From contig SYLG01000130.1 in assembly GCA_005808665.1 (NCBI GenBank), positions 1 through 34,441 on the forward strand: a DNA stretch of 34,441 nucleotides, in the 5' to 3' direction. Under the pieces are notes generated by a model. It worked only from the letters and a program-made list of their open reading frames with translations. It was not told the DNA's origin and did no database searches. The translations under genes were made by a program, and so were the position numbers. Shown one piece after another: positions 4,686 to 22,038 of the stretch. The first letter of the stretch is position 1. Each line of letters starts with the position of its first letter. Origin of the DNA: Planctomycetia bacterium. Lineage in GTDB: Bacteria; Planctomycetota; Planctomycetia; Gemmatales; Gemmataceae.

Positions 4686-4716
4686 GGTCACCCTCGTTTC
4701 CTGGTACCAGAACCCC

Positions 4717-5523: not shown

Positions 5524-5610
5524 CGCATCTCTCCCCTGAATAAACTGGAATCTCCTACCCAAGGGGGTTGGTTTCCTACCTCCATTGGAATACAACCTTG
5601 GAGCCTAAAT

Positions 5611-5715
5611 GCCATTAACCTGGTGCTTTAATCAGGTTGGCTGAGCCTTTCCCAAAGGAAGCAGGCCATCCGAAACTCCCAAGGCAACTAGTCCCCTTCG
5701 CACCAGGTTAATGGC
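5611..5715. repeat. Small element with 16-bp perfect inverted repeats
   Basis: GCCATTAACCTGGTGC at 5611-5626 is the exact reverse complement of 5700-5715, with 73 bases between. The outer ten bases GCCATTAACC also occur at the left border of the large repeat at 32633. This suggests the small structure is related to the dispersed element family, perhaps a minimal derivative. As an RNA it would form a long stem with a large loop. It has no poly-T tail, so it does not look like an intrinsic terminator. Confidence 0.6.
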
Positions 5716-5731
5716 CATCGTTTTTGGCCCC

Positions 5732-6051
5732 TTAGCCCAAGTTCCGCCGTTGGAGTGATTAATTACGATTTTTGGCTTATTTTGGGACCAGGACTGCGGT
5801 TTTACCCACGATTTGGGAGTATTTCGAGTTCCAAACGGCTCGTAGTCTGCCCAAGTCCCTTGCTATGGGTCGCAATTGTTCCAGTCCCTCCGCATCGGTT
5901 TGAACGGTTGAAAACCATTGGGAAGATGGAGGCCCAGTCTTGAACCAGACACCCAAAAAGGGGATTTGTATGCACGACTTTTTAAGGCGGATGTGACTTT
6001 TTCCCGTAACGAACCGGGTTATTATGGTCCTAAAGGCGTAACATGGGTTAA
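5732..6051 (+). repeat. Dispersed intergenic element, copy 2 (complete, about 320 bp)
   Basis: The left end TTAGCCCAAGTTCCGCCGTT (5732-5751) corresponds to TTAACCCAAGTTGCGCAGTT of copy 4. The right end GGCGTAACATGGGTTAA (6035-6051) corresponds to CTGCGTAACCTGGGTTAA of copy 4. The diverged core GTATTTCGAGTTCCAAACGG lies at 5819-5838. Near the right end, GGATTTGTATGCACGACTTTT aligns with GGATTTGTAGTCCCGACTTTT of copy 4. The element ends 14 bases before the ATG of the next gene, so that gene's leader lies inside or immediately beside it. Confidence 0.72.
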
Positions 6052-6065
6052 TCTGGAGAGATCCC

Positions 6066-7229
6066 ATGTTGCGCTGTTTATTGTTCGGAATTTTACTCAT
6101 TTTAGGCGGGTCCCTGCGAGCGGATTATCCCTGGGACAGGTCTGCATTGAAAGCTGTTTCCGTAACCCCTACCTGGGGAAATACGGCAAACGGAGTCCAG
6201 GAGTTGTACTATCTAGGCGTTCCCAGTCTGGGCAAACCGACGAGAGCCTTTGCCTACTATGGCAAGCCCAAGGGCAATGGGCCCTTCCCCGCCATGGTTT
6301 TGGTTCATGGGGGTGGAGGCAAGGCCTTTGCCGATTGGGTGAAACATTGGACCAACCGGGGTTATTGTGCGATCGCCATGGACCTTTCCGGGAACTCCCC
6401 CACCGGCCGACTTGCCGATGGGGCTCCCGACCAATCCGACGATAACAAGTTCAAGGATTTTACTCCGGACAATCCTCGGGAAATGTGGAGTTACCATGCG
6501 GTAGCCGATGTGATTTTGGCGCACAATTTGATCCGTTCCTTCCCGGAGGTAGATCCATCACAAATCGGGGTCACCGGGATAAGTTGGGGCGGGTACCTTA
6601 CCTGCATTGTGGCAGGAATAGACGATCGTTTTGCCGTGGCAGTGCCGGTCTATGGCTGTGGTTTTTTGCACAAGGACAGCGCCTGGAAGCAATCGCGTTT
6701 TGACAAGATGAGCCCGGATCAAAGCAGTCGGTGGATCCATGCCTTTGACCCTTCCCAACATGTCTCATCCACCAAATGCCCCATCCTGTTCCTCAATGGG
6801 ACCAACGATTTTGCTTATCCCATGGGCAGCTATTTGCAAACCTTCGGGTTGGTGACCGCCCCCAAAACCCTATCCATGCGAGTGAGGCTCCCCCATGGGC
6901 ATATTTGGACATTTGGCGAGGTCGATGCCTTTGTGGACGCTGCCCTCCATCGGGGTAAGCCCTTACCCAAATTGGGCGATTTGGTTTGGGACCATCCGAC
7001 TGCTTCCACCACCGTAACCCAGGCGACAGGGCTTCGCTCTGCCCAACTTTGCTATGCCTTAGCCGAGGGCCCTTGGCAAAAGCGGGAATGGAAAACGGTC
7101 CCAGCCACGATTAAAGAGGGCCGTATTTCCGCCCTTTTACCCCCTGATCGGCCCTTGGCGTTTTTTCTGGGGGTAGTGGATGACCGGGGTCTTGAGGTAA
7201 CGACCACACACAAGGTGTTGGAAAAATAA
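6066..7229 (+). CDS. Secreted acetylxylan esterase-like alpha/beta-hydrolase
   Basis: The 387-residue protein begins with a clear signal peptide (about 1-19, ending LRA). The alpha/beta-hydrolase core carries the oxyanion motif LVHGGGG, nucleophile elbow G-I-S173-W-G-G, an acid site in NGTNDFAYP and a histidine in LPHGHIW. This is the dienelactone hydrolase/acetylxylan esterase (prolyl oligopeptidase-like) group, which is expanded in planctomycetes. A C-terminal region of roughly 100 residues (from about 290) looks beta-rich and may be an accessory domain, as seen in PhoPQ-activated and AXE1-like proteins. The ATG follows TGGAGAG. The following PSD1/DUF1501 pair starts 149 bases later and is probably separately promoted. 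Substrate is unknown; ester removal from a glycan is the best guess. Confidence 0.85.
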   Translation: MLRCLLFGILLILGGSLRADYPWDRSALKAVSVTPTWGNTANGVQELYYLGVPSLGKPTRAFAYYGKPKGNGPFPAMVLVHGGGGKAFADWVKHWTNRGYCAIAMDLSGNSPTGRLADGAPDQSDDNKFKDFTPDNPREMWSYHAVADVILAHNLIRSFPEVDPSQIGVTGISWGGYLTCIVAGIDDRFAVAVPVYGCGFLHKDSAWKQSRFDKMSPDQSSRWIHAFDPSQHVSSTKCPILFLNGTNDFAYPMGSYLQTFGLVTAPKTLSMRVRLPHGHIWTFGEVDAFVDAALHRGKPLPKLGDLVWDHPTASTTVTQATGLRSAQLCYALAEGPWQKREWKTVPATIKEGRISALLPPDRPLAFFLGVVDDRGLEVTTTHKVLEK

Positions 7230-7378: not shown

Positions 7379-9478
7379 ATGCAAGCGGCCTTGTTTCTAG
7401 CCATTGCGATAGGTTTCGCCCCACCCGACTTTGAACGGGATGTTGTGCCCATTTTGGCGGCAAAGTGTCTGGGTTGCCACAATAAGAACGAAAGCAGTGG
7501 CGACCTGAACCTGCAAAATAACGACTCCATGAAAGACCTTGTGCCCCAACCGGGTCCTGAAAAAGGAGAGCTTTTTCGCCGCATCCAAAATCAGGAAATG
7601 CCCCCCAAAGAGAAAGGGAAACCTCTCACCGAAAAAGAAAAACAGACCCTCTTGTCCTGGATACAAACCGGGGCATCATGGCCCATCGGACGAAAACTGG
7701 GGCTTTATGAAAAAACCACCCCAACCGTCGGTGGCCTGGATTGGTGGTCGCTTCAACGGCTCAATTCCCCGGTTGTACCTCATTTCCCAGGTGTTTCAAA
7801 CCCAACGGATTCTTTTGTTCGCCAATCCTTGTCGGTCCAAAAGCTTTCCCCTGCCCCTGAGGCGGACAGGCGCACCCTTATCCGCAGGCTCTCCTATGAC
7901 ATTTTGGGACTTCCCCCCTCTTTTGAGGAGGTTAATCATTTTGTTGCGGATCCGGGACACGATGCTTACGATCGACTGGTTGACAAGTATTTGGCGGATC
8001 CCCGGTTTGGCGAACGCTGGGCGCGTCATTGGCTCGACCTGATCCGTTATGGCGATACCAACGGCTATGAACGGGATGGCGACAAGGCTTTTGCCTGGAA
8101 ATATCGCGACTATGTGATTCGTTCCATCAATGCGGACAAACCGTATGACCGTTTCCTCATCGAACAAATGGCGGGCGACCAGCTTCCCGACCGGACCGAA
8201 GAAACGCTCATTGCCACGGGAATGCTCCGGGTGGGGACATGGGATGATGAACCCAATGACAAATTGGAATACAGCTATGACAGGCTGGAAGACATGGTTC
8301 ATGTTTCAACGACGGCGTTTATGGCGATGTCGGTAAAATGTGCCCGCTGTCATGACCATAAATTCGATCCGATCACCCAGGAAGATTATCACAAGGTCGC
8401 GGCGGCATTTTGGCCAGGCGACCTTGTGGGCAACTCCCAAACCAAAGTGGGTGGATTTGATGTCCTTGCCTGGACCGATTTGCCGGGAAAACCCAAACCA
8501 TTGCATTTGCTCAAAAAAGGGGATCCAAGGCGGCCCGGGCCCGAAGTATTTCCAGGGTTTGTGTCCATGATCCCCACATTGGATGCGACGATTCCCCCCA
8601 AAAAGGAAGTCCAGATGCGCCGGTTGGAACTGGCCAAAAAACTCGCCCATCCTGGCAACCCCCTGACCGCACGGGTCGCCGTCAATCGCATTTGGCAACA
8701 ACACTTTGGCCAGGGAATTGTCCGCACCCCGGACAACTTTGGCTTCAAGGGAGCCCTTCCATCCCATCCCGAATTGCTCGATTTCCTCGCCCTGGAGTTT
8801 ATCAAGGGGGGATGGCAAGCCAAACCGATTCACCGCATGATTCTTACCTCCGCCACCTATAAACAATCGTCGATCCATCCCGAAGAAGCCGCCTTTTCCA
8901 GGATCGATTCCCTCAACCGGTTTCTTTGGAAAGCCAACCGTCACCGGATTGATGCGGAGGCATTGAGGGATTCGTTGCTGGTGGTGGGATCCGGGCTGGA
9001 TACCACCATGTTTGGTCCTGGGATCACGCCAACGATTACCAGCGAGGCTCTCGAGGGCCTGTCGAAAAAAGCGGGAGCATGGCAGCCTTCGCCCCTGGAG
9101 AAGCAACGCCGCCGAAGCATCTACATTCATGTGAGGAGGTCGCTGATCAATCCGTTGCTGGGCACTTTTGATTTTGCGGACACCTCAAGACCCTGTGCCC
9201 AACGGGATGTCACCTTGGTCGCCCCGCAAGCCCTGATGCTTTTGAACGATGGCTTTGTCCATGCCGAAAGCAAGGCCCTGGGAGTTCGGGTATCCAGAAT
9301 GGGAACCGATGCAAAAACCCGGATTCAAGGGGCATGGCGGCTAGCCCTTGGCCGGGATCCCACCCCCCGGGAAGTATCCCTGGGCTCTGATTTTCTGGCC
9401 CGGATGGGTGATGAATTGGGCCTGGAAAAACTTTGCCATGTTCTGGTAAATACCAACGAATTTGCCTATGTGGACTAA
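7379..9478 (+). CDS. PSD1-type protein: planctomycete cytochrome-like domain, DUF1549, DUF1553
   Basis: The 699-residue protein has a short hydrophobic start (about 1-14) consistent with export. Residues 18-100 form a planctomycete cytochrome C-like domain with C30-x2-C33-H34 and a C-terminal MPPK motif that could provide the methionine ligand. DUF1549 follows (about 137-345), including the second CxxCH-type motif KCARCHDHKFDP. DUF1553 occupies about 410-660, with AVNRIWQQHFGQG and the NFG and HPELLD motifs. Relatives are often 750-1100 residues long; here the stretch between DUF1549 and DUF1553 is short and no concanavalin-like domain is present. The family is abundant in planctomycetes, its biochemical role is not settled, and it is almost always paired with DUF1501, as here (six bases before the next ATG). 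Confidence 0.93.
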   Translation: MQAALFLAIAIGFAPPDFERDVVPILAAKCLGCHNKNESSGDLNLQNNDSMKDLVPQPGPEKGELFRRIQNQEMPPKEKGKPLTEKEKQTLLSWIQTGASWPIGRKLGLYEKTTPTVGGLDWWSLQRLNSPVVPHFPGVSNPTDSFVRQSLSVQKLSPAPEADRRTLIRRLSYDILGLPPSFEEVNHFVADPGHDAYDRLVDKYLADPRFGERWARHWLDLIRYGDTNGYERDGDKAFAWKYRDYVIRSINADKPYDRFLIEQMAGDQLPDRTEETLIATGMLRVGTWDDEPNDKLEYSYDRLEDMVHVSTTAFMAMSVKCARCHDHKFDPITQEDYHKVAAAFWPGDLVGNSQTKVGGFDVLAWTDLPGKPKPLHLLKKGDPRRPGPEVFPGFVSMIPTLDATIPPKKEVQMRRLELAKKLAHPGNPLTARVAVNRIWQQHFGQGIVRTPDNFGFKGALPSHPELLDFLALEFIKGGWQAKPIHRMILTSATYKQSSIHPEEAAFSRIDSLNRFLWKANRHRIDAEALRDSLLVVGSGLDTTMFGPGITPTITSEALEGLSKKAGAWQPSPLEKQRRRSIYIHVRRSLINPLLGTFDFADTSRPCAQRDVTLVAPQALMLLNDGFVHAESKALGVRVSRMGTDAKTRIQGAWRLALGRDPTPREVSLGSDFLARMGDELGLEKLCHVLVNTNEFAYVD

Positions 9479-9484
9479 TTTGAT

Positions 9485-10927
9485 ATGAATATCCCCCATT
9501 TGTTTCCTTGTGGGCTCAACCGTCGGGAGGCCTTGTGGCAGATGGGTGGCGGGTTTACCGGCATTGCCCTTGCTGCCATCCTTGAGGAACAGGGTTTCTT
9601 TCGCAAACATCTGGGTGCGGCGGAGCCGGCCATTCGGGCTTCCAGTCCCCATTTTGCCCCCAAGGCCCGGGCCGTGATCCACCTGATGATGAACGGTGCC
9701 CCCAGTCAGGTAGATACCTTCGACCCCAAGCCTTTGCTTGAAAAATATGCGGGCAAGCCCCTTCCCCAGGACAAAAAATATATCAACTCGGGTGGCCGCA
9801 AGGTTGGATTTTTGACCCCTGCGTTTCGCCCCTTTCGCCCGGGCGGGAAGAGTGGCATCCCCATCTCCGATTATTTTCCCCATGTACGATCTCACGCCGA
9901 CAAATTGGCGGTCATCCGTTCCTGTCATACGGATAGCCACGCCCACGGTAGCGCCCTCGTTGCCATGAATACGGGTAGCGTTTTCATCGGCCGACCTTCG
10001 CTCGGCTCGTGGTGCGTCTATGGCATGGGGACAGCCTGCAAAAATCTCCCAGCCTATGTTGTCATGATGGACAAGCGGGGTGGGCCGATCAGTGGTCAGC
10101 CCAACTTTGGGTCTGGTTTTATGCCCGGGCAATTCCAGGGGACACTGTTTCGACCTGTTGGAACCCCCATCCTCAACCTCAAGGGGCCTGACAACCCTTT
10201 CATTCAGCGGACACAACTGGACCTTTTGGCGAAACTCAACGAAGACCATATGGCCCTTCGCCCTGGTGGTACGGATTTGGCAGCTCGGGCCCAAAGCTAT
10301 GAATTGGCCTACCGGATGCAGACCGAAGCCCCCGAAGCCGTAGACTTTGCCACAGAATCGAAACAAACCTTGGAAATGTATGGCATTGGCCGGGAACCCA
10401 CCAACGAGTTTGGCAGAAACTGCCTGATCGCCAGGCGCCTGGTCGAACGAGGGGTAAGGTTCATCCAACTCTACTCAGGCGGTGGCCACCTCGATGATAC
10501 CTGGGATGCCCATGTCAGCATCGAAAAAAATCATGGCCAACATGCCAGGGAGGTGGATCAACCGATTGCAGCCCTCCTTTGGGATTTGGAACGGCAGGGA
10601 CTTCTGGAAAGCACTCTGGTTGTTTGGGGCGGTGAGTTTGGCCGTATGCCCTTTAGCGAGGGACCGGGTGAGCCTGGCCGAAACCACAACCCGTATGGCT
10701 TTTCCTCATGGTTTGCCGGGGCTGGGATCAAGGGGGGAACCACATACGGGGCCACGGATGATTTCGGTTTTGAGGCCATCGAGAATAAAGCCCATGTCCA
10801 CGACCTCCATGCCACCATCCTCCACCTTTTGGGATTTGACCATGAACGGTTGACCTATTTTCATCAGGGGAGGGATGAACGGTTGACGGATGTCTACGGC
10901 CATGTCCTCCGGGGGATTTTGAATTAG
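9485..10927 (+). CDS. DUF1501 protein, Tat-type N-terminus
   Basis: The 480-residue DUF1501 protein is related to the sulfatase/alkaline phosphatase fold. The N-terminus contains NRREALWQMGGG followed by a hydrophobic stretch (about 12-35), which looks like a Tat signal. Characteristic motifs include LMMNGAPSQVDTFDPK, HTDSHAHGSA, SLGSWCVYGMG and VVWGGEFGRMP, then GRNHNPYG. These match the DUF1501 core that keeps several metal-binding-like Asp and His residues. The gene begins six bases after the PSD1 stop, so the two are co-transcribed and likely work together at the cell envelope. The function of the pair is not established; a role in capture or processing of complex substrates has been proposed for relatives, and I treat that as unproven. 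Confidence 0.93.
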   Translation: MNIPHLFPCGLNRREALWQMGGGFTGIALAAILEEQGFFRKHLGAAEPAIRASSPHFAPKARAVIHLMMNGAPSQVDTFDPKPLLEKYAGKPLPQDKKYINSGGRKVGFLTPAFRPFRPGGKSGIPISDYFPHVRSHADKLAVIRSCHTDSHAHGSALVAMNTGSVFIGRPSLGSWCVYGMGTACKNLPAYVVMMDKRGGPISGQPNFGSGFMPGQFQGTLFRPVGTPILNLKGPDNPFIQRTQLDLLAKLNEDHMALRPGGTDLAARAQSYELAYRMQTEAPEAVDFATESKQTLEMYGIGREPTNEFGRNCLIARRLVERGVRFIQLYSGGGHLDDTWDAHVSIEKNHGQHAREVDQPIAALLWDLERQGLLESTLVVWGGEFGRMPFSEGPGEPGRNHNPYGFSSWFAGAGIKGGTTYGATDDFGFEAIENKAHVHDLHATILHLLGFDHERLTYFHQGRDERLTDVYGHVLRGILN

Positions 10928-11214: not shown

Positions 11215-12717
11215 ATGAATAACATACGCCTTGGTTTTGGTGTTCGCATCCTCATCCTGGGGCTCCTTTTCCTGTTGGGACTTGGTGCAACCAACCTGAT
11301 GTGGATCTCGATGATGGGAACCATTCAGGTCAACGGCCCGCTTTACAAGCAGATCGTCCAAGGCAAGGATCTGGTGGCGGATTACCTGCCTCCACCGCTT
11401 TATGTGGTTGAAGCCTACCTGGTGGCTTTGCGGCTTGGTGAGGAAACCGGATCAAAAAGGGAAGAGCATCTGCAAAAATTCCGCGCTTTGCGCCAGGAGT
11501 TTGAAACCCGTTACCAGTTTTGGCAAAAGGATTTGAGCCCAGGCGATATGCGTGACAAACTCATCAAGGAAACCTATACCCTGGGACTGGATTTCTTCAG
11601 GATCGTGGAGAAGGATTTGGTTACTGGTACCGCCAAAAAATTGCCCCCCGACGCCATTATCGCCTATGAAAAACACCGGGAAGCCGTCGATGAATTGGTC
11701 AAACAGGCCAATGCCCGGGTGTTGGTGGATGAGGCAACCGCAAGGTCCACAGCATCGTGGTGGTCAACGGTCCAACTCATGTTCAACCTTTCCTTGTTGG
11801 TTGTGCTCGCCGCGATCGCTTGGTACATTGCCCAAGGGATCCAAAAGGTCGTCAAATCGTCGAGCGAGCTGGTCGGTCAGGTAAAGATGTCCGCGATTCG
11901 GATCAATGCCACCACCGCCCAAATCGCTTCGGCTGCCGCCGAGCAGGACGCAACGGTCCAGACATTCAATTCAAGCTTTAATGAGATCGCCGCGGCAGTA
12001 AAGCAAATTTCGGCGACCAGCAAGGAATTGGCCCGAACCATCGAGGCGGTCGGCCATCAAGGACGCGAAACCGCCCGCCTTGCGGGAGATGGTCGGGAAA
12101 ACCTTGGTTCGATGGAAGCCTCGATGGCCTCCCTTTCCGAAGCCACAGGATCCATCTCCACCAAACTGGGTACCATTCGGGAAAAGGCAGGAGCGATCAA
12201 TGTGGTCGTAACCACCATCACCAAGGTTGCTGACCAAACCAACCTCCTTTCCATCAATGCCGCCATCGAGGCCGAAAAAGCCGGTGAGGCAGGCCGCGGC
12301 TTTCTTGTCGTCGCACGCGAAATTCGCCGGTTGGCAGACCAAACCGCAGTCGCCACCCTGGACATTGAACAAATGGTCCGCCATATGCAACAGGCCGTCA
12401 GTTCGGGTGTCATGGAAATGGACAAATTCAGTGAACAGGTGCGTGGTGGAATGAAGCAGGTGAGCACCATTAGCCAGCAACTGGGACAGATTATGGTTCA
12501 AGTCCAGGGCCAGGAGGGTCAATTCAAGCAGGTGGAAGAGGGGGTCACCCAACAGGCCGAAGGAGCCCAACAAATCGACACGGCGATCAGCCAACTCGGT
12601 ACGGGAATGCGCCAGGTTTCCACGACATCCAATGAGTTTTCTGGTGCGGCTACCCACCTTCATGATTCCATCCAGGGAATGCAGGACCAAGTGGCATTGG
12701 TCAATTTGGGAGCCTAA
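11215..12717 (+). CDS. Chemoreceptor 1 (methyl-accepting chemotaxis protein, WspA position, no HAMP)
   Basis: The 500-residue receptor has TM1 at about 11-33, a periplasmic sensor of about 150 residues with GKDLVAD-LPPPLY (50-63, one variable residue), TM2 at about 186-205, and a long cytoplasmic coiled coil. The signalling tip is [20 protein letters not shown] (338-357), a recognisable variant of the usual receptor hairpin. Directly after TM2 there is no HAMP pattern; the coiled coil begins at once, while the neighbouring receptor does have one. Ala- and Gln/Glu-rich heptads on either side are candidate methylation regions for the CheR and CheB encoded downstream. It is the first gene of the operon, ending three bases before the next start. 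The ligand is unknown; in the Wsp system the receptor responds to surface contact or envelope stress. Confidence 0.9.
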
Positions 12718-12720
12718 TAA

Positions 12721-14358
12721 GTGCTTGAAACCATCCTTGGCAAAAAAGGTTCGATCGGTCGTAGCCTCACCTTGCTTACGGGCATAACCCTTGGCGGCCT
12801 GTTGGTCGTAAGTGTGGTTTGGTGGGCGATGCTCCGAACGGTGCAAATCAACGGCCCCCTTTACAAGAAAATCGTAACCGGCAAGGACCTTGTCGCGGAT
12901 TTCCTTCCTCCACCCCTTTATGCGGTGGAAGCATACCTGATCGCCATGAGGATCATCGACGAACAATCCACTTCTTCCACAAGGGCACCCCTCAAAGCCA
13001 GCTACCTCAAGCTCCGCCAGGAATTCAGGGAGCGGTGGGATTTTTGGCGAAAGGGTGAACAGGCCGCCTTGGGAAGGGAAATAACCTTCGTGGATGCGGT
13101 TCGCACCGGCGAGGATTTCCTGGCCATTCTCGACAATGAAATCCTCCAGACAAATGTCAACAAAATGTCCACCCTTGCCTCCCAGGCTTTTGAAAAACAC
13201 AAGGCTGCGGTGGAAGAGCTCATCAAAAAAACCAATGACGCCATTACCGAAGATGAAACGATCGCCAAAGAGACCGTCTGGTTGTGGTCGGTGGGACTAA
13301 TCACCTTTACCATTACCCTCATTGGGGCCCTTTCCTTGATGGCAATCCGGATTGCCAAAGGCATCCTTTCTCCCACCAATCGCCTGGTAAAGCACATGGT
13401 GGACCTGGAAACCAAGGCCGATCTAACCATTCGATTGGGCGAAGGGACCAAAGGCGAGATAGGAATAATTGGGGACATCCTGGACCGGGTCATCAGCCGA
13501 TTCCAGGAAATTCTTGGGATGGTCAAGCTATCCACCAATACCCTTGGAGGCACAGCGGCAGAAATTGCCTCCGCTGCGGGAGAACAAAACGCAACCGTGC
13601 AGACCTTCAATGCCAGTTTTAACGAGATTGCTGCAGCCGTCCGGCAAATCAGCGGAACCAGCCGAAGCCTTGCCCAAACCATCGAAGAAGTGGGAAACAA
13701 AGGTCGGGAGACTTCCCAACTGGCAGTCGATGGTCGGGAAAATCTTGGTTCGATGGAGGCTTCCATGGCCTCCCTTTCCGAAGCCACAGGATCCATCTCC
13801 ACCAAGCTGGGTACCATTCGGGAAAAGGCAGGGGCGATTAATGTGGTCGTTACCACCATCACGAAGGTTGCCGACCAAACCAACCTCCTTTCCATCAATG
13901 CCGCCATCGAGGCTGAAAAAGCTGGGGAGGCAGGTCGCGGCTTTCTTGTCGTCGCCCGCGAAATTCGCCGGTTGGCCGACCAAACCGCCGTCGCCACCCT
14001 GGACATTGAACAAATGGTCCGTCATATGCAACAGGCCGTTAACACCGGTGTCATGGAAATGGACAAGTTTAGCGATCAGGTTCGAAGTGGCATGAAACAA
14101 GTCAATAGCATTAGCCACAAACTGGCAAGGATCATGGAACAGGTCCAAGGTCAGGATACGCAGTTCCGCCAGGTGGAACTGGGGGTGACCCATCAGGCCG
14201 AAGGGGCCCAACAAATCGACACGGCCATTGCCCATTTGGGTGGTGGTGTTCAGCAGGTAACGACCACATCCAAAGAGTTTCAGTTGGCCTCAGCCAACCT
14301 CAAGGATTCGGTTTTTTCCCTGCAAGAACAAATGTCAATATTCCGGACAACACGCTAA
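12721..14358 (+). CDS. Chemoreceptor 2 (methyl-accepting chemotaxis protein with HAMP)
   Basis: The 545-residue receptor is paralogous to the preceding gene. TM1 is at about 15-38, the periplasmic domain carries [19 protein letters not shown] (54-73), TM2 is at about 188-208, and a HAMP-like segment lies at 209-264 ([12 protein letters not shown] through [14 protein letters not shown]). Residues 337-440 are identical to residues 292-395 of receptor 1. The start is GTG at 12721, after a GGGAG box and two in-frame stops (TAATAA) that close the previous gene. The HAMP-containing and HAMP-less receptors could form mixed arrays coupled through the shared tip to the CheW proteins downstream. N-terminal halves have diverged, so the two may sense different cues or the same cue with different gain. 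Confidence 0.9.
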
Positions 14359-14385
14359 TTGAAAATGGCCTCTCTCAGGTGAATC

Positions 14386-14892
14386 ATGCTAGCCCTCATG
14401 TGCCAGGTAGGCGGACAACGATGTGCGGTGGATTGCGCCATGGTGGTGGAAGTAATCCCCCGGGTCAAGTTGGAAGAGCTGCCCGGCTCCCATTTCCAAA
14501 TTGCCGGAATCGCTCGACATCGGGGCGAATCCATTCCTGTGGTGGACCTTGGCCGCCTTCTTGCCAATCAGGGATGTGCCGACCAATGGAGCAACCGGAT
14601 CATCGTCGTGGAGAAGTTGAAAAACGAAAAGATCAGCCGATTCGGTTTAATGGTGGAACACCTGGAACCTGTGGATTTCCCCGAGGGACCAACCCAAGCC
14701 AATGAAGCCAAAGGGCTCGGCAACTGGGGCCAGATTTGCCAGGATGCTTCCGGGATTTATCAGGTCCTGGATCTGGATGTTATCCACGAGCGTGCCTTCA
14801 CAAGCGGCCCTACCCAGGGTTCATTATTTCCAACCCAGGCATCCTTGTCCGGTACTTCTACCAAGGGTCTTCGAGGCGCCGATGACCGTTGA
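14386..14892 (+). CDS. cheW: CheW-like coupling protein 1 (WspB position)
   Basis: The 168-residue protein contains a CheW domain over most of its length: VGGQRCAVDCAMVVEVIPRV at the start of the fold, IAGIARHRGESIPVVDL (the highly conserved beta-turn of CheW), and a later GLMVEHLEPV. CheW proteins connect receptor tips to the histidine kinase. Its position directly after the receptors and before CheR is that of wspB. The ATG follows CAGGTGA. Its last 11 bases overlap the start of cheR, which suggests translational coupling. The C-terminal 40 residues (Ser/Thr/Gln-rich) extend past the usual domain and show no motif. Confidence 0.87.
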   Translation: MLALMCQVGGQRCAVDCAMVVEVIPRVKLEELPGSHFQIAGIARHRGESIPVVDLGRLLANQGCADQWSNRIIVVEKLKNEKISRFGLMVEHLEPVDFPEGPTQANEAKGLGNWGQICQDASGIYQVLDLDVIHERAFTSGPTQGSLFPTQASLSGTSTKGLRGADDR

Positions 14893-16252
14893 GCCACGCC
14901 CTTTTTCACCTGAAACCGGTTCAAAGCATAATACCGATGCCAAAACTTCCCACGATTCCATTGAAGCATCCAAACCCCTTTGGGATTCCTTTAAAAAAAT
15001 CCTGAGCGACCATAGCGGCCTCAAAGCCGAACTTGTCCATGATCAGGTCCTAACTACTGCCCTCAAAAACCTTGCCAGGAAACTTGGCCCGGAACCCGTT
15101 TTGTGGCTCAAATCCCTGGAAACCGACCCCCTCCTCCGTACCTGTTTTTGCGAACATTTCACTGTGGGGGAAACCTGGTTCTTCCGTGACTGGACCCCGT
15201 ATGCCTGTCTGAAACAATTCGCCGAGTCTTTCCAGGCCCGTTCCCCCGGAAGGCCTCTTCGCATCCTTAGCATCCCATGCTCCACTGGCGAGGAGCCTTG
15301 GTCCATGGCGATGCTTTTTGCCTGGCTAGGCTGGACTCCAAACCAGGTTGGTATTGATGCGGTAGACCTGAACCGAACCTCCCTGATCACCCTGGAAAAG
15401 AGAATCTATCGGCCCTATTCCCGGCGGGAAACCAATCCTGAGGCAAACCGAATCCTTGACCGGTTTACCAGAACCCTGTCGGACAGATTTGAAATTGACC
15501 CATCCCTTGTGGAATATGTTCGCACCCACCAAGGCAACATCCTCGATCCTAGCCTGAACCCGGGTGGATTTGGCTTTCATTATGATGTCATCTTTTCGCG
15601 AAACCTGTTTATCTATCTGAACAGCCAAGCCAGGCCCATTGCCCTTGGCCATTTGCTTAGGCTCCTGGATCCTGAAGGAATCCTGTACCTTGGTCATACC
15701 GAGGGTGCCGTAATTGACCCGGCCTTGTTAATTCAATGGAACCCGGAATTCAGTTTTGCCTTCACCCCTAGAAAAGCCAACACTCCGCCCAAACTTGAGC
15801 CGATTCAGAAAAATCACCCAAGTCCGATTCGAACATTCGCCGCCCCCCATCCGGCACCCAAAGAAACCCAGCTGGTAGCCAATCCCATAAGGAAGCCTCT
15901 CCTTCCCAAGGAGGTACCCCGGCCCAAACAAAACCCCATCGACGAGGCCCGGGATGCTGCCGATGCGGGTAAACTTGACTTGGCCAGTCAACTCTATGCC
16001 GACTTGTTGAAAACGCATCCCCTTTCGGCAGACCTTTGGCGCATGGCCGCCATGGTGGAACAGGCCGGGGGCAAACACGAAAATGCACTCCGAATGTTTG
16101 ATAGGGTCCTTTATTTGGACCCAAAAGATACACAATCCCTTCGGATGGCGTCCCTTATTCGCCGCCAACGGGGTGAAATTGCCAAAGCCTTGCAATTGGA
16201 AAGGCGTCTCGCCGTCCTTGATCAAGGCTCCAAAGGGGAAGAAAACAAATGA
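14882..16252 (+). CDS. cheR: CheR methyltransferase with C-terminal TPR repeats (WspC-like)
   Basis: The 456-residue protein is a chemoreceptor glutamate methyltransferase. An N-terminal helical CheR domain includes ETWFFRD (97-103). The SAM-binding domain carries the motif IPCSTGEEPWS (131-141), an acidic DAVDLN (159-164), and YDVIFSRNLFIYL (234-246). A proline-rich linker (300-365) joins it to a tetratricopeptide region (about 368-456) with two or three repeats. CheR-TPR architecture is that of WspC and FrzF. The in-frame ORF extends 60 codons upstream inside cheW, but those residues look like out-of-frame read-through. ATG 14882, 11 bases inside the end of cheW and after GAGG, is chosen. 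The stop overlaps the next ATG by four bases. It should set receptor adaptation together with CheB. Confidence 0.92.
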   Translation: MTVEPRPFSPETGSKHNTDAKTSHDSIEASKPLWDSFKKILSDHSGLKAELVHDQVLTTALKNLARKLGPEPVLWLKSLETDPLLRTCFCEHFTVGETWFFRDWTPYACLKQFAESFQARSPGRPLRILSIPCSTGEEPWSMAMLFAWLGWTPNQVGIDAVDLNRTSLITLEKRIYRPYSRRETNPEANRILDRFTRTLSDRFEIDPSLVEYVRTHQGNILDPSLNPGGFGFHYDVIFSRNLFIYLNSQARPIALGHLLRLLDPEGILYLGHTEGAVIDPALLIQWNPEFSFAFTPRKANTPPKLEPIQKNHPSPIRTFAAPHPAPKETQLVANPIRKPLLPKEVPRPKQNPIDEARDAADAGKLDLASQLYADLLKTHPLSADLWRMAAMVEQAGGKHENALRMFDRVLYLDPKDTQSLRMASLIRRQRGEIAKALQLERRLAVLDQGSKGEENK

Positions 16253-16947
16253 TCCATTCCACCATAAAAGAATCCGTTTCTTTGCCTATGACCGCCCTTG
16301 ATGAGTCAGGCGTATTTTGCTGGAACCGTATTGGAGTCCAAGGGGATCGGAGTTGTGGACGACTGGTGGAGGTTGTCCATTGCCACAATTGCCCCATTTT
16401 TTCCGATGCCGGTCGCATGCTCTTTGACAGGGCCCCTCCCGAAGAAGTTCTCGTCGAACGGACCTCCCAAACAGCCATTCGTGCCGATCGGAGCATGGAA
16501 CAGCTTAGCTCCGGTCTTTTGTTTAGGCTGGGTGAGGAATGGTTGGTCATAGACGCCATGTCAACCATCGAGGTGGCTGAACTTCGCCCGATTCGGCGCA
16601 TTCCCAGGCGAACCGATTCCATCTTTCTTGGGATGGTAAACATCCGGGGTGAGTTGCGCCTTGCCTTTGACCTGCACCAATTGCTTGGCATTGCCCCTAT
16701 TCAGGGAACAGATCGGCAAGCGGGCCGGTTTGTGGTCATTCGACTGGACCGGCAGACCTGGGTCTTTCCAACCGATGAGGTTGCCGCCATCATCCGTTAC
16801 CGACATTCACAGGAGACCGCGGTACCCTCAACCCTTGAGCGGTGGAAATCCGCCCTGGTAAGATCGGTCATCGAATGGGAAAAGAAAAAGGCAGGCCGGA
16901 TAGACTCAATTGAGTTGCTGGCCCGACTTAACAAACACATGGGATAA
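16249..16947 (+). CDS. cheW: CheW-like coupling protein 2 with Cys-rich N-terminus (WspD-like)
   Basis: The 232-residue protein has a CheW domain at about 85-230 (FRLGEEWLVIDA, VNIRGELRLAFDLHQLLG, DEVAAIIRYR). It is preceded by an 80-residue extension with CWNRIGVQGDRSC (24-36) and VVHCHNCPIF (42-51). The same kind of extension is known to me from WspD-type coupling proteins, which supports assignment to the Wsp class rather than to a flagellar system. Cys24, Cys36, His44, Cys45 and Cys48 could bind a metal or respond to redox; this is speculation. The ATG overlaps the cheR stop by four bases (ATGA). The gap to the CheA gene is 68 bases, the longest in the operon, and could hold an internal ribosome entry or minor promoter. 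Confidence 0.88.
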   Translation: MIHSTIKESVSLPMTALDESGVFCWNRIGVQGDRSCGRLVEVVHCHNCPIFSDAGRMLFDRAPPEEVLVERTSQTAIRADRSMEQLSSGLLFRLGEEWLVIDAMSTIEVAELRPIRRIPRRTDSIFLGMVNIRGELRLAFDLHQLLGIAPIQGTDRQAGRFVVIRLDRQTWVFPTDEVAAIIRYRHSQETAVPSTLERWKSALVRSVIEWEKKKAGRIDSIELLARLNKHMG

Positions 16948-17015
16948 ATAGCGGCGGATACGATTTGGGAGTCACTTCCCACCGATCGGATCCATTTCAA
17001 CGGGGAATGCTCATC

Positions 17016-19820
17016 ATGTCAGACATACTTTTGGAACTTTTCAAGGAAGAAGCCAAAATCAACCTGACCGTTTTGGAAAACGGGTTGATCGAAGGGGAGC
17101 AAAACGGGCTTGAAACGAGGGACATTGAGCCGCTCATGCGTGCGGCCCATTCGCTCAAGGGGGCAGCCAGGGTGATCGGGCTTTCCCCCTTTGTCGAGGT
17201 AGCCCATGTGTGTGAAGACCTTCTTGTAGCCGCCCAGAATGGTCAAACCGAACTGGTTTCCGCCGACTACGACCTCCTTATGGAGGCCGCAGGACATTTG
17301 AAGTCCATGGCCGAACAGGCGGGAAGTACCTTTGAGGGCTGGTTTGCCGAAAACCGCATCCCCATCGACCTGATTCATGAAAACCTTTTGCGTCGAACCA
17401 AAGGTGAGCCCACGAAAGTTGCCCCAAAAGAACCAAAAACAAAAGAAGAAATATCGCCTCCAGCAAGGGTAATGGATAGTAACCCCATCTCCGAAGAAGA
17501 TTCCCAGGCAAAAGCGATTGCCTTGCAACTGGAATGGCTCCAGGCAATGGACCCAGCCAACGATCCCATGGTGGACTTGATGAAAGCGGAGGTTGCCACC
17601 CATTCGCAAAACCTCCAAGCCAGGATATTAAACGCCAAACCGGATGCCAAACTAATGGCCAATCTGGAAGGGATTGCCCAGGAGGTCCGTGGGGTAGCCT
17701 TATTGGTTGGGGTAAAACCGATCGCCACCCTCGCCTTGGAATTGGCGAATGTTTTCCAGAGTTTGACCAAGCAACCCGAGAAACTTGCCGAGGGCCGCGA
17801 TTGGTTGGAACAGGCCGCCCAACTTGTTTGTGAAACCTCCGGGGCATTTGGGCCTGGCTTTTCGGAGTGGGCCAAATCCGTTGCCTCCCGGGCGGGCAGC
17901 ATACTGGGAAATATTCCCCCATTTGCTCGCCGCCAAACCGCACCCATAGCCCAGCCGGTGGCCCAAACCCAGGCAGAACCTATAACCATGCCACCCCCTT
18001 CCAAAGCGGAAAAATCGGCCAAGGAAGCCACCAAAGAAACCAAAACCCACGAAAAATTTACCGAAACGGCGGAACGCATTGTTCGGGTCAATGCCCTGGC
18101 CCTCGAACGGCTAATGGGGCTTGCGGGCGAATCCTTGCTTGAGGCAAGGTGGCTTCAGGCGTTTGCCCAAAGCCTGCTTCGGCTCAAACGGCAACAATCC
18201 ATCCTTCGGGACGAAGTGGATGATATCCTTGGTTTATTTGGGCAGGATCATGTCGATCTCGATCGTCTGCGTGAATCCCTCCAGGGTTTCAGGCAACATT
18301 TGTCCAGTTCGGGAGATACCCTTGCCGAACGGATGGGGGCCTTTGAAGAACATGCCAGGCAATCGGATGACCTCAACAGCCGGTTGTATCGTGAGGTGAT
18401 TTTGAGCCGCATGACCCCGTTTCGAAATGGGGTCCAGGCATTCCCCAAAATGGTTCGCGATATGAGCAAACAATTGGGAAAGCAGGCCAAGATCGAAATT
18501 CGGGGGCTTGATACCGAAGTGGACCGTGACATTTTGGACAAACTGGATGCGCCCTTGACGCATATGATCCGGAATTCGCTCGATCATGGTTTGGAATCTC
18601 CCGAGGAACGCGAAAATTTGGGTAAAAACCCCATTGGAAACCTCATCCTTGAAGCCAAGCACACCGCAGGGATGTTGGTAATTACCCTTTCTGATGATGG
18701 TCGGGGGGTGGATCCCGAAAAGATTCGCAAAAAAGTGCTTGAACGGAAACTGGCCTCGGCCGATATGGTGGGGAGGCTTTCCGAGGCGGAGCTGCTTGAG
18801 TTCCTGTTCCTGCCGGGTTTTAGCACCGCAGGCAAGGTCACCGAAATCTCGGGCAGAGGAGTTGGTCTCGATGTGGTTCACAGCACCATCACAAGCGTGG
18901 GTGGCAGCGTTCGCTTGACCAGCGTTATTGGCAAAGGAATCACCTTTCATATGCAATTGCCGCTAACGCTGTCCGTGATCCGGGCAGTATTGGCTCGCAT
19001 TAGTGGTGACCCCTATGCGTTTCCCCATCATCGCATCGATGGCCTTATGCGCGTTCCCCAATCGGAATTACGGTCCTTGCAAGATAGGCAATTTTTCGTG
19101 GTGGATGGGCGCAATGTTGGCCTGGTGATGGCGAGGCAGATCCTGCAGGTAGATGGGGAACCCATGGTTCAGGAGGAGCTGCCTGTGATCCTTTTCTCAA
19201 GCCACGGTCAGTCCTACGCCCTTTTGGTGGACGAATTTGTGGGCGAGCAGGACCTTGCCGTTCGGCCCATCGACGCACGGCTGGGAAAGGTGCCCTATGT
19301 CCATGCCTCGGCGATCCTCGATGATGGGTCCCCTGTCCTCATCCTCGATGTGGATGATCTCAGGCGCGGAATTGACAGAATGCTTGATGAGGGAAGGCTA
19401 AGGCGAACAGACGCCAATACCTCCAAATCGCTTCGTAAAAAGCGCAAAAAAGTCCTCGTCACGGATGATTCGATCACTGTCCGGGAGGTCCAAAGGCAGC
19501 TCTTGGCGGGCAAGGGGTACGATGTTCAAACGGCGGTGGATGGCATGGATGGATTGAATGTGGCCAAGGAGGAATCTTTTGACCTCATTATTACCGACAT
19601 TGACATGCCCCGAATGAACGGTATCGAGTTGGTCACAAAAATCCGTGCCGATGCTTCTTTGAGGGAAACCCCCGTGGTCGTAGTTAGCTATAAAGACAGG
19701 GAGGAAGATCGCCTTCGCGGTTTGGAAGCAGGGGCAAACTACTATCTGACCAAAAGTAGTTTCCAGGACGATACCCTGCTCCAGGTGGTTCACGAGTTGA
19801 TTGGAGAACCCTATTCGTGA
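17016..19820 (+). CDS. cheA: Hybrid CheA histidine kinase with receiver domain (WspE-like), second HPt degenerate
   Basis: The 934-residue kinase has HPt at 1-120 with the phosphorylatable His45 in AAHSLKGAARVIGL; a second HPt-like helical region at about 165-290; a Pro/Ala/Lys linker; a dimerisation domain (350-470); the ATPase domain (N box with HMIRNSLDHG 516-525, SDDGRGV 559-565, GFSTAG 601-606, GRGVGLDVV 613-621); a CheW-like domain (650-790); and a C-terminal receiver (811-930) with DD at 817-818, acceptor Asp861 and Lys913. In the second HPt-like segment the His is replaced: A-Q222-E-V-R-G aligns with A-H45-S-L-K-G. ATG 17016 is preferred because GGGGA lies ten bases upstream; 17007 is too close to it. 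The stop overlaps the GTG of cheB. The receiver may act as phosphate sink or as an internal regulator, as proposed for WspE. Confidence 0.93.
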   Translation: MSDILLELFKEEAKINLTVLENGLIEGEQNGLETRDIEPLMRAAHSLKGAARVIGLSPFVEVAHVCEDLLVAAQNGQTELVSADYDLLMEAAGHLKSMAEQAGSTFEGWFAENRIPIDLIHENLLRRTKGEPTKVAPKEPKTKEEISPPARVMDSNPISEEDSQAKAIALQLEWLQAMDPANDPMVDLMKAEVATHSQNLQARILNAKPDAKLMANLEGIAQEVRGVALLVGVKPIATLALELANVFQSLTKQPEKLAEGRDWLEQAAQLVCETSGAFGPGFSEWAKSVASRAGSILGNIPPFARRQTAPIAQPVAQTQAEPITMPPPSKAEKSAKEATKETKTHEKFTETAERIVRVNALALERLMGLAGESLLEARWLQAFAQSLLRLKRQQSILRDEVDDILGLFGQDHVDLDRLRESLQGFRQHLSSSGDTLAERMGAFEEHARQSDDLNSRLYREVILSRMTPFRNGVQAFPKMVRDMSKQLGKQAKIEIRGLDTEVDRDILDKLDAPLTHMIRNSLDHGLESPEERENLGKNPIGNLILEAKHTAGMLVITLSDDGRGVDPEKIRKKVLERKLASADMVGRLSEAELLEFLFLPGFSTAGKVTEISGRGVGLDVVHSTITSVGGSVRLTSVIGKGITFHMQLPLTLSVIRAVLARISGDPYAFPHHRIDGLMRVPQSELRSLQDRQFFVVDGRNVGLVMARQILQVDGEPMVQEELPVILFSSHGQSYALLVDEFVGEQDLAVRPIDARLGKVPYVHASAILDDGSPVLILDVDDLRRGIDRMLDEGRLRRTDANTSKSLRKKRKKVLVTDDSITVREVQRQLLAGKGYDVQTAVDGMDGLNVAKEESFDLIITDIDMPRMNGIELVTKIRADASLRETPVVVVSYKDREEDRLRGLEAGANYYLTKSSFQDDTLLQVVHELIGEPYS

Positions 19821-20851
19821 GAGTTGCCATTGTCAACGACCTGCGCATTGCCACCGAAGCCTTGAGGTCGGTCCTCCAGGCAGGGAGGCATCAAGTCGCT
19901 TGGACGGCGGTTGATGGAAAAGAGTCGGTGGTTAAAGCCAAAGCCGATCCACCCGAATTGATCCTCATGGACCTGGTAATGCCGATCATGGATGGTGCCG
20001 AGGCCACCCGTCAAATCCGCCTGGGTGCCAAAATTCCCATTCTGGTTGTCACTTCGTCGGTTGCTGCCAATTTCGACTTGGCAACCAAGGCCATGAGCCA
20101 TGGTGCCCTCGATGTTGTCCTTTTGCCAACCATTAAGGACGATCCGGCCAAAGACGGTTCATCCCTGCTTAATCGGCTGAAAAATATCCAAAACATCAAC
20201 ATCCAAACCGAAAAAATCTCCTCCGCCATGATGGCAAAGCTGCCCCTGCCTGGCGGGGAAACCTTGTCCCAAAACCCAATCCAACTGGTAGTGATCGGGG
20301 GTTCAACCGGGGGGCCAGCCGCCTTTGAGAAAATTGTCCTCGGGCTGGGTGCCAAAAGTGATGCCGCTTTTATTATCCTCCAGCACATTGGGGGGGAGTT
20401 TTGTGAATCCTTTGCCAAGTGGCTCAGCAGACCAGGGTGCTTACCCCTTGCCATCGCCAATCCCGGCGACAAACCCACCCCAGGCAAAATCCTCCTCGCC
20501 AACAGCAACCGCCACCTCATCATGAAACGCGATGGGTCCCTCGATTACTCCCTTGAGCCAACAAACATTCCCTTTTTACCCTCGGTGGATGTTTTCATGG
20601 AAAGTTGTGCTTTGAACTGGAAAGGCCGTGGAATCGCCGGCATCCTCACCGGGATCGGTAGGGATGGGGCCAAGGGATTGCTGGCCCTTCAACAAAAGGG
20701 GTGGATCACCTTTGCCCAGGACGAAGCAACCTCGGTCGTCCATGGCATGCCCAAGGCCGCTGCCGATTTGGGAGCAGCCAAATACATTCTGCCCATTGGC
20801 CATGTAACGGATTTCATTCAAAGGCAACTTTCCAAAGCGGTGACCAAATGA
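19817..20851 (+). CDS. cheB: CheB-type receptor methylesterase with receiver domain (WspF-like)
   Basis: The 344-residue protein has an N-terminal receiver (1-110) with acidic residue Asp8 and acceptor Asp52 in LILMDLVMPIMDG, and a C-terminal methylesterase domain (about 153-340). Ser163 in IGGSTGGP, His190 in ILQHIGGEF and Asp283 in GIGRDGA form the catalytic triad. The VND start and the AL-DVV ending of the receiver, without the usual KP dipeptide, resemble WspF rather than classical CheB. The GTG start at 19817 overlaps the cheA stop (GTGA), and the stop overlaps the next ATG (ATGA), so translation is coupled on both sides. Phosphorylated CheB removes methyl groups from the receptors and resets the signal. 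Confidence 0.93.
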   Translation: MRVAIVNDLRIATEALRSVLQAGRHQVAWTAVDGKESVVKAKADPPELILMDLVMPIMDGAEATRQIRLGAKIPILVVTSSVAANFDLATKAMSHGALDVVLLPTIKDDPAKDGSSLLNRLKNIQNINIQTEKISSAMMAKLPLPGGETLSQNPIQLVVIGGSTGGPAAFEKIVLGLGAKSDAAFIILQHIGGEFCESFAKWLSRPGCLPLAIANPGDKPTPGKILLANSNRHLIMKRDGSLDYSLEPTNIPFLPSVDVFMESCALNWKGRGIAGILTGIGRDGAKGLLALQQKGWITFAQDEATSVVHGMPKAAADLGAAKYILPIGHVTDFIQRQLSKAVTK

Positions 20852-22038
20852 GCCATCCAACCCCTGTTTCAAATGAATTGTCCAATGGGATCCGGGTACT
20901 CCTTGTGGACGACCAGGAAATCATTGGTAAAGCCGTGGAATTGATGCTCAAGGGAGAGGCTGGCCTTGAGTTTTTCCATGTGACCAACCCTGTCGAGGCG
21001 ATTCCGGCCGCCATCAAATTCAAGCCGACCATCATCCTCCAGGACCTGGTCATGCCCGAGGTCGATGGCCTTACCCTTGTCAAATTTTTCAGGGCCCACC
21101 CGGCCACCAGGGAAGTACCCATCGTGGTCCTTTCCTCCAAGGAGGAGCCCATCACCAAGGCAAAAGCATTCGAGGTGGGTGCCAACGACTACCTTGTCAA
21201 GCTGCCCGACCGGCTCGAATTATTGGCCCGGGTTCGCTACCACTCTTCCGGTTACCGCCACCTCCTTGAAAGAAATGAAGCTTACAAACAAATCGAAGCA
21301 TCGCGCAAAACCATGGCGCATCAGATTCAGTCCGCCCTCAAATATGTCCAATCCCTTTTGCCCCAACCCATGGACACACCTGTTCGGGCCCGGTGGAATT
21401 ATCTCCCTTGCACCTCGCTGGGAGGTGACACCTTCAACTATTACATGCTCGATGAAGACAACATGGCGATCTTTCTCCTTGATGTCACAGGCCACGGACT
21501 GGATTCGGCATTTTTGTCGGTTTCGGTGATGAATGTTCTGCGTTCAAGGGCACTGGATGCCGATTTTCTGGATCCCGCTTCGGTGACAGATGGGCTCAAC
21601 AAAGCGTTCCCCATGGAGAACTATGGGGGAAAAAGCTTTACGATCTGGTACGGGGTTTATTCGTTTTCCAAAAAGGAAATTGCCTGGTCAGGGGGCGGGC
21701 ATCCCCCCGCCCTGCTCATGTGTCCCGGTAAGGAAATCGAGCTTCTGGAATCCGATGGTCCGATCATAGGCATTATGCCTTGGGAAGATTTTGTAACCTC
21801 CAGGCGCAAGGTAACCCCGGGCAGTCGCCTCTTTGTCTATTCGGATGGCTGCCACGAAATCCACCTGGCAGATGGGCGTGAGTGGACCTTTGCGGAGTTT
21901 CTGGATGTAGTAAAGCAAAACAGGGATCTTGAAAGTGGCGAATCCCTGACCCGTTTGCTGGCAACCTGCCGGTCCCTTGCTGGAACTGATGTCCTTGATG
22001 ACGATTTTACCGCCACAATTCTGGACTTCCCCAGATAA
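20848..22038 (+). CDS. Response regulator with PP2C/SpoIIE serine phosphatase output, in the WspR position
   Basis: The 396-residue protein joins a receiver (about 14-132; Asp21-Asp22, acceptor Asp66 in ILQDLVMPEVDGL, Lys118) to a short coiled-coil linker (133-160) and a PP2C/SpoIIE-like serine/threonine phosphatase domain (about 170-394). Phosphatase motifs are LGGDTF (Asp194), LDVTGHG (Asp212), SGGGHPPA, FVYSDG (Asp332) and DDDFTATI. The receiver and linker (GANDYLVKLPDRLELLARVR and following HSSGYRHLLERNEAY) read like WspR, where a GGDEF cyclase would follow. It is the last gene of the operon, overlapping cheB by four bases. The phosphatase presumably acts on a phosphoserine protein such as an anti-sigma antagonist; none is encoded nearby. 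The in-frame ORF extends upstream, but ATG 20848 with the ATGA overlap is clearly the start. Confidence 0.93.
   Translation: MSHPTPVSNELSNGIRVLLVDDQEIIGKAVELMLKGEAGLEFFHVTNPVEAIPAAIKFKPTIILQDLVMPEVDGLTLVKFFRAHPATREVPIVVLSSKEEPITKAKAFEVGANDYLVKLPDRLELLARVRYHSSGYRHLLERNEAYKQIEASRKTMAHQIQSALKYVQSLLPQPMDTPVRARWNYLPCTSLGGDTFNYYMLDEDNMAIFLLDVTGHGLDSAFLSVSVMNVLRSRALDADFLDPASVTDGLNKAFPMENYGGKSFTIWYGVYSFSKKEIAWSGGGHPPALLMCPGKEIELLESDGPIIGIMPWEDFVTSRRKVTPGSRLFVYSDGCHEIHLADGREWTFAEFLDVVKQNRDLESGESLTRLLATCRSLAGTDVLDDDFTATILDFPR

Follow-up and report, generated by a model that had tools for sequence, protein, structure and literature searches.

A Wsp-type chemosensory operon of a planctomycete with a predicted PP2C phosphatase output and a probable partner-switch target

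The Wsp chemosensory system of Pseudomonas, WspABCDEF, serves the sensing of surfaces and ends in WspR, whose GGDEF domain produces cyclic di-GMP (c-di-GMP), and in Burkholderia the output is the histidine kinase WspH; these are referred to here as the R-type and the H-type. A survey from 2021 describes Wsp as exclusive to beta- and gammaproteobacteria, with a betaproteobacterial origin and with only WspR or WspH as outputs (PMC8552884). In 2012, a survey of clusters containing CheR-TPR had already listed protein phosphatases among the outputs of their response regulators (PMC3447774). A precedent for chemosensory control of partner switching is found in Shewanella, where the Che1 locus encodes CrsR-CrsA, which partner-switches RpoS (PMC9855816, PMC6482189). 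Here we describe an eight-gene operon on the + strand of a 34,441-nucleotide stretch of DNA (the window; contig SYLG01000130.1 of the Planctomycetia bacterium assembly GCA_005808665.1, family Gemmataceae, C117 among the 186 contigs of a 4.48 Mb genome). The operon, at 11215-22038, has a Wsp core and a terminal regulator in which a receiver (REC) is joined to a PP2C phosphatase domain, an arrangement called P-type below. It probably encodes a Wsp-family array that controls a STAS/RsbW partner switch through this regulator, with phosphotransfer, activation and target all predicted from the genes.

The output regulator

The regulator gene (20848..22038, + strand) encodes a receiver domain (PF00072), a helical stalk and a SpoIIE/PP2C domain (PF07228, E 1.1e-34). 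The receiver (20887..21210) is of the WspR type, and over about 140 residues the protein is about 50-55% identical to the WspR of proteobacterial loci, compared with about 30% for other receivers. A sequence search of the whole PDB ranked the WspR structures 3bre and 3i5a at the top, with 167 and 165 bits over residues 7-156, followed by the REC-PP2C protein RssB with 95 bits. The identity between P-type and R-type regulators is high in the receiver, declines along the stalk and is no higher than background from residue 156 onwards, a position within the long helix; at this residue, the swap junction, the per-residue identity to WspR drops from 0.38 to 0.08. As far as its sequence tells, the regulator is a domain swap that has kept the receiver and half of the stalk of WspR and has exchanged the GGDEF domain for PP2C. 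An earlier reading of the window made from the letters alone (the sequence-only reading) had regarded it as an analogous regulator; it is indeed a REC-PP2C protein, yet it is not merely analogous, since its receiver and stalk are WspR's own. The comparison made there with the REC-PP2C regulator HsbR is apt and extends to CrsR.

The residues expected for function are present. The phospho-acceptor Asp66 (21043-21045), the DD motif and K118 of the receiver are invariant in 91 of 91 REC-PP2C homologues, and the four catalytic metal-site Asp motifs of the phosphatase domain (21385..22026) are conserved in these homologues wherever they align. By its residues, the PP2C domain is predicted to be catalytically complete. 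The AlphaFold2 model (pLDDT 93) shows the stalk, residues 122-169 (21211..21354), as one long helix, and Foldseek returned RssB of P. aeruginosa as the closest solved fold, then RssB of E. coli and WspR, with SiaA and the RsbU domain of Rv1364c also among the matches.

The distance along the stalk from K118 to S169 is 51 residues in 77 of the 91 homologues and 44 in the remaining 14, with no other length, a difference of exactly one heptad. In WspR, 48 residues separate the same receiver motif from the start motif of GGDEF (10 of 10 parsable proteins). Given that the lengths are exactly 51 or 44, they fit the transmission of a signal through coiled-coil register, as has been argued for RsbU and for RssB of P. 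aeruginosa (PMC12143880). These natural swaps on one receiver and stalk provide a test case for the proposal that, through coiled-coil linkers, phosphatases, cyclases and kinases can stand in for one another as outputs (PMC12143880).

The window regulator has the architecture neither of the R-type nor of the H-type, nor that of HsbR and CrsR: PF07228 stands where the R-type has GGDEF, Pfam detected no HisKA/HATPase output such as that of the H-type, and the third, RsbW-type kinase domain of HsbR and CrsR (REC, PP2C, kinase) is missing, given that the protein ends after PP2C. This has a practical consequence for annotation. WspR and WspE-WspRF appear in a survey of freshwater Planctomycetes (PMC6461901); wherever a protein so named is of the REC-PP2C type, the name WspR would lead to an erroneous prediction of c-di-GMP signalling.

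The Wsp core, its distribution and the direction of the swap

The operon has the A-B-C-D-E-F order of Wsp together with CheR-TPR, a second CheW and CheA-REC, and Azoarcus and Mesorhizobium have annotated loci with the same order. The second CheW carries the extension CWNxIGxxGDxSC...HCxNCP that is common to proteobacterial WspD. In two CheA trees, with 85 and 78 Wsp-type rows including the window, these rows form one clade with support 100; they were set against CheA of E. coli and further CheAs from planctomycetes and from plasmids (ten of the latter), and several of the outgroup branches are long. A CheB tree with 108 rows, repeated under another model, has all Wsp-type rows on one side of a supported branch and CheB of E. 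coli and other planctomycete CheBs on the other, and the window genome's own gene (entered as L227) and its orthologues from the same genus fall in the Wsp clade. When the kinase core was compared with plasmids by tblastn, WspE scored 343-374 bits and other CheA at most 208 bits among the matches listed. The Wsp affinity claimed by the sequence-only reading is upheld, with CheA and CheB in one clade with proteobacterial WspE and WspF and apart from other chemosensory systems; the placement far from Wsp homologues that it had named as evidence against itself was not obtained in these trees. By gene order, domains and tree placement, the operon is assigned to Wsp as a core with a third type of output.

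The shared core of receptor, CheA, CheW, CheR and CheB is also that of chemotaxis, and the operon could accordingly serve motility, with the REC-PP2C gene being incidental. This is highly improbable: FliG was not found in the genome, which is scored 100% complete, the operon has no stand-alone CheY, its kinase and methylesterase fall in the Wsp clade, and REC-PP2C is conserved beside Wsp clusters across phyla. An ordinary flagellar chemotaxis operon was rejected on the absence of FliG.

All domains of the eight genes were confirmed by Pfam, with E of at most 1e-13 for every main domain and 1e-7 for the TPR repeat, values far beyond chance. Receptor 1 (11215..12717, PF00015 E 8.6e-31), a WspA-like methyl-accepting chemotaxis protein with two apparent membrane helices, is followed by receptor 2 (12721..14358, PF00015 E 1.9e-32), also WspA-like, with a weak HAMP domain. 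CheW occupies the position of WspB (14386..14892, PF01584 E 1.5e-17) and CheR, with its C-terminal TPR, that of WspC (14882..16252, PF01739 E 6e-24, TPR_16 E 1.2e-7). They are followed by the WspD-type CheW (16249..16947, PF01584 E 2.4e-17), with its N-terminal Cys-rich extension at about 16318-16398, conserved in planctomycete and proteobacterial WspD, by the WspE-type hybrid kinase CheA-REC with Hpt, HATPase, CheW and REC domains (17019..19820), and by the WspF-type methylesterase REC-CheB (19817..20851, PF01339 E 1.9e-47). The order and strand given in the sequence-only reading were thus recovered, as were the SpoIIE/PP2C end of the last gene and the absence of GGDEF, EAL and PilZ domains, none of which Pfam detected within the operon. 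The gene set stood, and three start codons, assigned by inspecting translations, moved downstream of the openings of their reading frames: for CheR-TPR from 14702 to a likely ATG at 14882, overlapping the CheW stop, for CheA from 16965 to about 17007-17019, and for REC-PP2C from 20701 to a likely ATG at 20848, in an ATGA overlap with the cheB stop. The operon is also present in two genomes of the same genus, where the WspD-type protein is 94% and 68% identical, and the same gene order recurs across many genomes. Culturable carriers of this operon type include Zavarzinella formosa (L167) and Gemmata sp. IIL30 (L159).

The sequence-only reading had proposed a surface- or envelope-sensing pathway; such a stimulus is putative here, and the sensor regions of both receptors matched no Pfam family. 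HAMP and the four-helix-bundle (4HB) domain remained undetected in receptor 1 even at relaxed E, receptor 2 gave a sub-threshold HAMP match (E 0.012), and neither has a recognisable 4HB sensor domain, which together with HAMP was matched in the proteobacterial controls L096 and L097. Receptor 2 is 35% identical to WspA of Azoarcus over query residues 47-542. Over 722 bases of DNA, the signalling regions of the two receptors share 81% identity, although receptor 1 lacks HAMP; the tandem pair seems to have been duplicated or homogenised by gene conversion recently, with membrane-proximal parts that have diverged.

Directly upstream of the operon (7379-10927) lie a PSCyt1/DUF1549/DUF1553 gene and then a DUF1501 gene. 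Farther away, on the - strand at 882-3152, a serine beta-lactamase-type domain (PF00144) is fused to the N and C domains of NamZ, an exo-beta-N-acetylmuramidase, in one peptidoglycan-related protein.

REC-PP2C genes adjoin Wsp clusters in 28 fetched planctomycete loci in addition to the window, as the first gene of the operon in many Gemmataceae and as the last in others. The survey of planctomycete Wsp-like neighbourhoods that the sequence-only reading had proposed returned recurring REC-PP2C outputs, and no GGDEF regulator was seen at the planctomycete Wsp clusters among the loci fetched. That Wsp loci without an adjacent REC-PP2C gene lack it altogether was rejected for six genomes (G424, G423, G094, G404, G201 and G295), in which a full-length match is found elsewhere or on another contig. 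One planctomycete Wsp cluster (L095) has beside it, at 4342-6102, a gene for a degenerate WspR-like receiver followed by GAF and an HD-GYP-like HD domain.

P-type loci also occur in Desulfobacterota, Acidobacteriota, Verrucomicrobiota, Lentisphaerae, Elusimicrobiota, Methylococcaceae, Alphaproteobacteria, one Chloroflexota metagenome-assembled genome and Cyanobacteria; the loci from outside Planctomycetota are mostly metagenome bins, so the lineage given for any one locus may be mistaken. PP2C domains from Cyanobacteria have much lower scores, and the cyanobacterial REC-PP2C may be an independent fusion. P-type Wsp would represent a third output type beyond the two recorded in the 2021 survey (PMC8552884), present in many phyla. 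No description of Wsp with PP2C or with partner switching was found in the open-text literature, subscription papers being outside the reach of that search. Complete R-type wsp operons were also seen on alphaproteobacterial plasmids (L097, L098 and L102, from Mesorhizobium, Novosphingobium and Hyphomicrobiales), which runs counter to the published range of beta- and gammaproteobacteria only.

Related Wsp receivers carry other outputs as well, in a set of loci that was gathered with a REC-PP2C alignment and is hence biased towards PP2C. Histidine kinases (L099, L082) and GGDEF domains occur, and two Methylococcaceae bins (L136, L139) hold a single Wsp cluster with two output genes, of which REC-GGDEF is terminal and REC-PP2C divergent. 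Class III nucleotide cyclases are found in L201, L202, L204, L208, L210 and L211, and in L173 beside a PP2C; they apparently constitute a fourth Wsp output, one of cyclic mononucleotides. Several of these fusions of a WspR-type receiver with a class III adenylate/guanylate cyclase lie inside Wsp operons, in Cyanobacteria and Desulfobacterota, and another was noted in L261 (922-2049).

The sequence-only reading had held that the pathway was rewired from second-messenger synthesis to dephosphorylation, and this direction was not borne out. In the CheA tree, the clade of GGDEF and histidine kinase systems nests inside PP2C systems, the GGDEF systems are likewise nested within PP2C systems in the CheB tree, and a CheA tree in which PP2C systems were constrained to one clade was rejected (p 2e-87). 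For the receiver, a tree built on few columns, a single PP2C clade was not rejected (approximately unbiased test, p 0.31). Given that kinases and regulators may have had different histories and that sampling was made by REC-PP2C, PP2C is not claimed to be ancestral, and the output swap may have run in either direction. With rather more doubt than belief, we entertain the broader proposal that Wsp, far from being a c-di-GMP device of proteobacteria, is an ancient sensing module spread over many phyla, whose outputs (PP2C, class III cyclase, GGDEF and histidine kinase) are interchangeable through a heptad-phased stalk on one receiver, the phosphatase/partner-switch form being older or commoner and the Pseudomonas c-di-GMP form having arisen later by output swap. 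In any case, the P-type, a third output type, is seen in Planctomycetota and several other phyla, and the c-di-GMP type nests among these loci, so both the distribution accepted for Wsp and the function presumed to be its first need to be revised.

Partner-switch genes and the candidate pathway

A downstream target of the phosphatase, which the sequence-only reading had missed, is suggested by the neighbours of REC-PP2C genes. Within 1.5 kb of a REC-PP2C gene, 12 STAS/RsbW genes were found against 1.07 expected from the density of such genes in the rest of the same loci. The RsbW-type kinase profile corresponds to PF13581, and nearly all neighbour genes were confirmed by Pfam. In L148, REC-PP2C, RsbW and STAS genes stand in an uninterrupted row, in L168, L175 and L181 RsbW immediately follows REC-PP2C, and in L139 a STAS gene begins 13 bp after it. 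A P-type operon of Gemmataceae (L068, 5302-6183) has a REC-RsbW fusion (PF00072-PF13581) between wspE and wspF, and in Pirellulales an Hpt-STAS fusion adjoins the REC-PP2C gene at a different, non-Wsp chemosensory cluster.

WspR-type receiver regulators, with PP2C or cyclase outputs, were observed beside a second, non-Wsp chemosensory cluster in L135, L138 and L154 of Pirellulales and in L261 of genome G435; the adjacent Hpt-STAS fusion was checked in L135, L154 and L261.

The window's genome has one CheA and one CheB. Its two STAS genes lie on contigs C158 and C113, and the one on C158 is directly upstream of the sole confident RsbW-type gene (8865-9392 of L120). The linkage with STAS/RsbW neighbours and the gene content of the genome itself make a partner switch the most likely pathway, and STAS/RsbW likely to be the downstream target. 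Signalling by the receptors would lead to autophosphorylation of the WspE-type kinase, which would phosphorylate Asp66 of the REC-PP2C regulator, and CheB for adaptation. A dimer of receivers would then alter the helical stalk, of heptad-quantised length, so that the paired PP2C domains are turned on. Their target would be a STAS anti-anti-sigma protein kept phosphorylated by an RsbW-type kinase, for which the single STAS-RsbW pair on C158 is the candidate here, and the array would in this way set the partner switch and so govern either a sigma factor or some other client of STAS.

Several observations weigh against this pathway. The Poisson p of the enrichment (1.8e-9) is approximate, given that the window's genome supplied the seeds for the STAS and RsbW profiles, which were then iterated over the loci being counted, and that genes within a locus are not independent. 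Of about 92 REC-PP2C loci, only 9 have a STAS or RsbW gene within 1.5 kb, and the corresponding 0 of 20 loci with other outputs form a control too small to be significant alone. The STAS-RsbW pair of the window's genome does not lie near the operon, and its true partner could be another SpoIIE phosphatase, the FHA-GAF-SpoIIE protein encoded on contig C69.

The majority of P-type operons without such a neighbour and the unlinked candidate in the window's genome would also suit a P-type Wsp system whose phosphatase acts on a substrate other than STAS, for example the substrates of Hanks-type Ser/Thr kinases or proteins of its own array, and SpoIIE-type PP2Cs could have substrates besides STAS. 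This alternative is unlikely, if still deserving of weight, given that STAS/RsbW neighbours are enriched in several phyla and that the fold matches those of RssB, SiaA and the Rv1364c RsbU domain, phosphatases that act on STAS proteins. SiaA-SiaC has been described as a phosphatase-STAS pair (PMC9239204).

The output might instead still feed c-di-GMP, with the phosphatase acting on a STAS protein that in turn controls a diguanylate cyclase, in the manner of the HsbR-HsbA-HsbD (PMC6482189) and SiaABCD (PMC9239204) pathways of Pseudomonas. One GGDEF protein, without a REC domain (contig C70), would be available for it; nonetheless, it is the single one in the genome, no EAL protein was found there, and its contig has no STAS or SpoIIE match, all of which makes this route improbable. 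Partner switching by STAS and RsbW is retained as the probable pathway of the planctomycete operon.

Comparison with known systems

The operon fits the alternative cellular function (ACF) class as described in the survey of CheR-TPR clusters (PMC3447774) in having CheR-TPR and a multidomain regulator. That survey gives the phosphatase outputs as an aggregate count in its main text and does not tie them to the WspR receiver, the stalk, partner-switch genes or Planctomycetes. With the R-type of Pseudomonas, the operon shares gene order, CheR-TPR, the Cys extension of WspD, CheA-REC, CheB and the receiver and half stalk of the regulator; it differs in having PP2C and not GGDEF, two tandem receptors without a recognisable 4HB, and a distribution in phyla outside Proteobacteria. 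The H-type of Burkholderia was the earlier case in which a Wsp receiver had exchanged its output (PMC8552884), and its output gene is at the 5' end, as in many P-type operons of Gemmataceae, although WspH is a histidine kinase and the window regulator a predicted PP2C phosphatase.

Outside Wsp, RssB of P. aeruginosa (3f7a, 3eq2) and HsbR share the order of REC, helical linker and PP2C. RssB is the closest solved full-length fold, yet its sequence matches the window regulator less well than WspR does (95 bits against 167), and HsbR is fed by HptB and not by a chemosensory CheA (PMC6482189). Chemosensory control of a REC-PP2C protein has its precedent in another class, F7, with a three-domain regulator: the Che1 locus of Shewanella, like the P-type system proposed here, encodes a REC-PP2C partner-switch regulator, CrsR, together with an anti-sigma antagonist, CrsA (PMC9855816, PMC6482189), but it is not a Wsp system, and CrsR has an extra anti-sigma/kinase domain, whereas the window regulator ends after PP2C.

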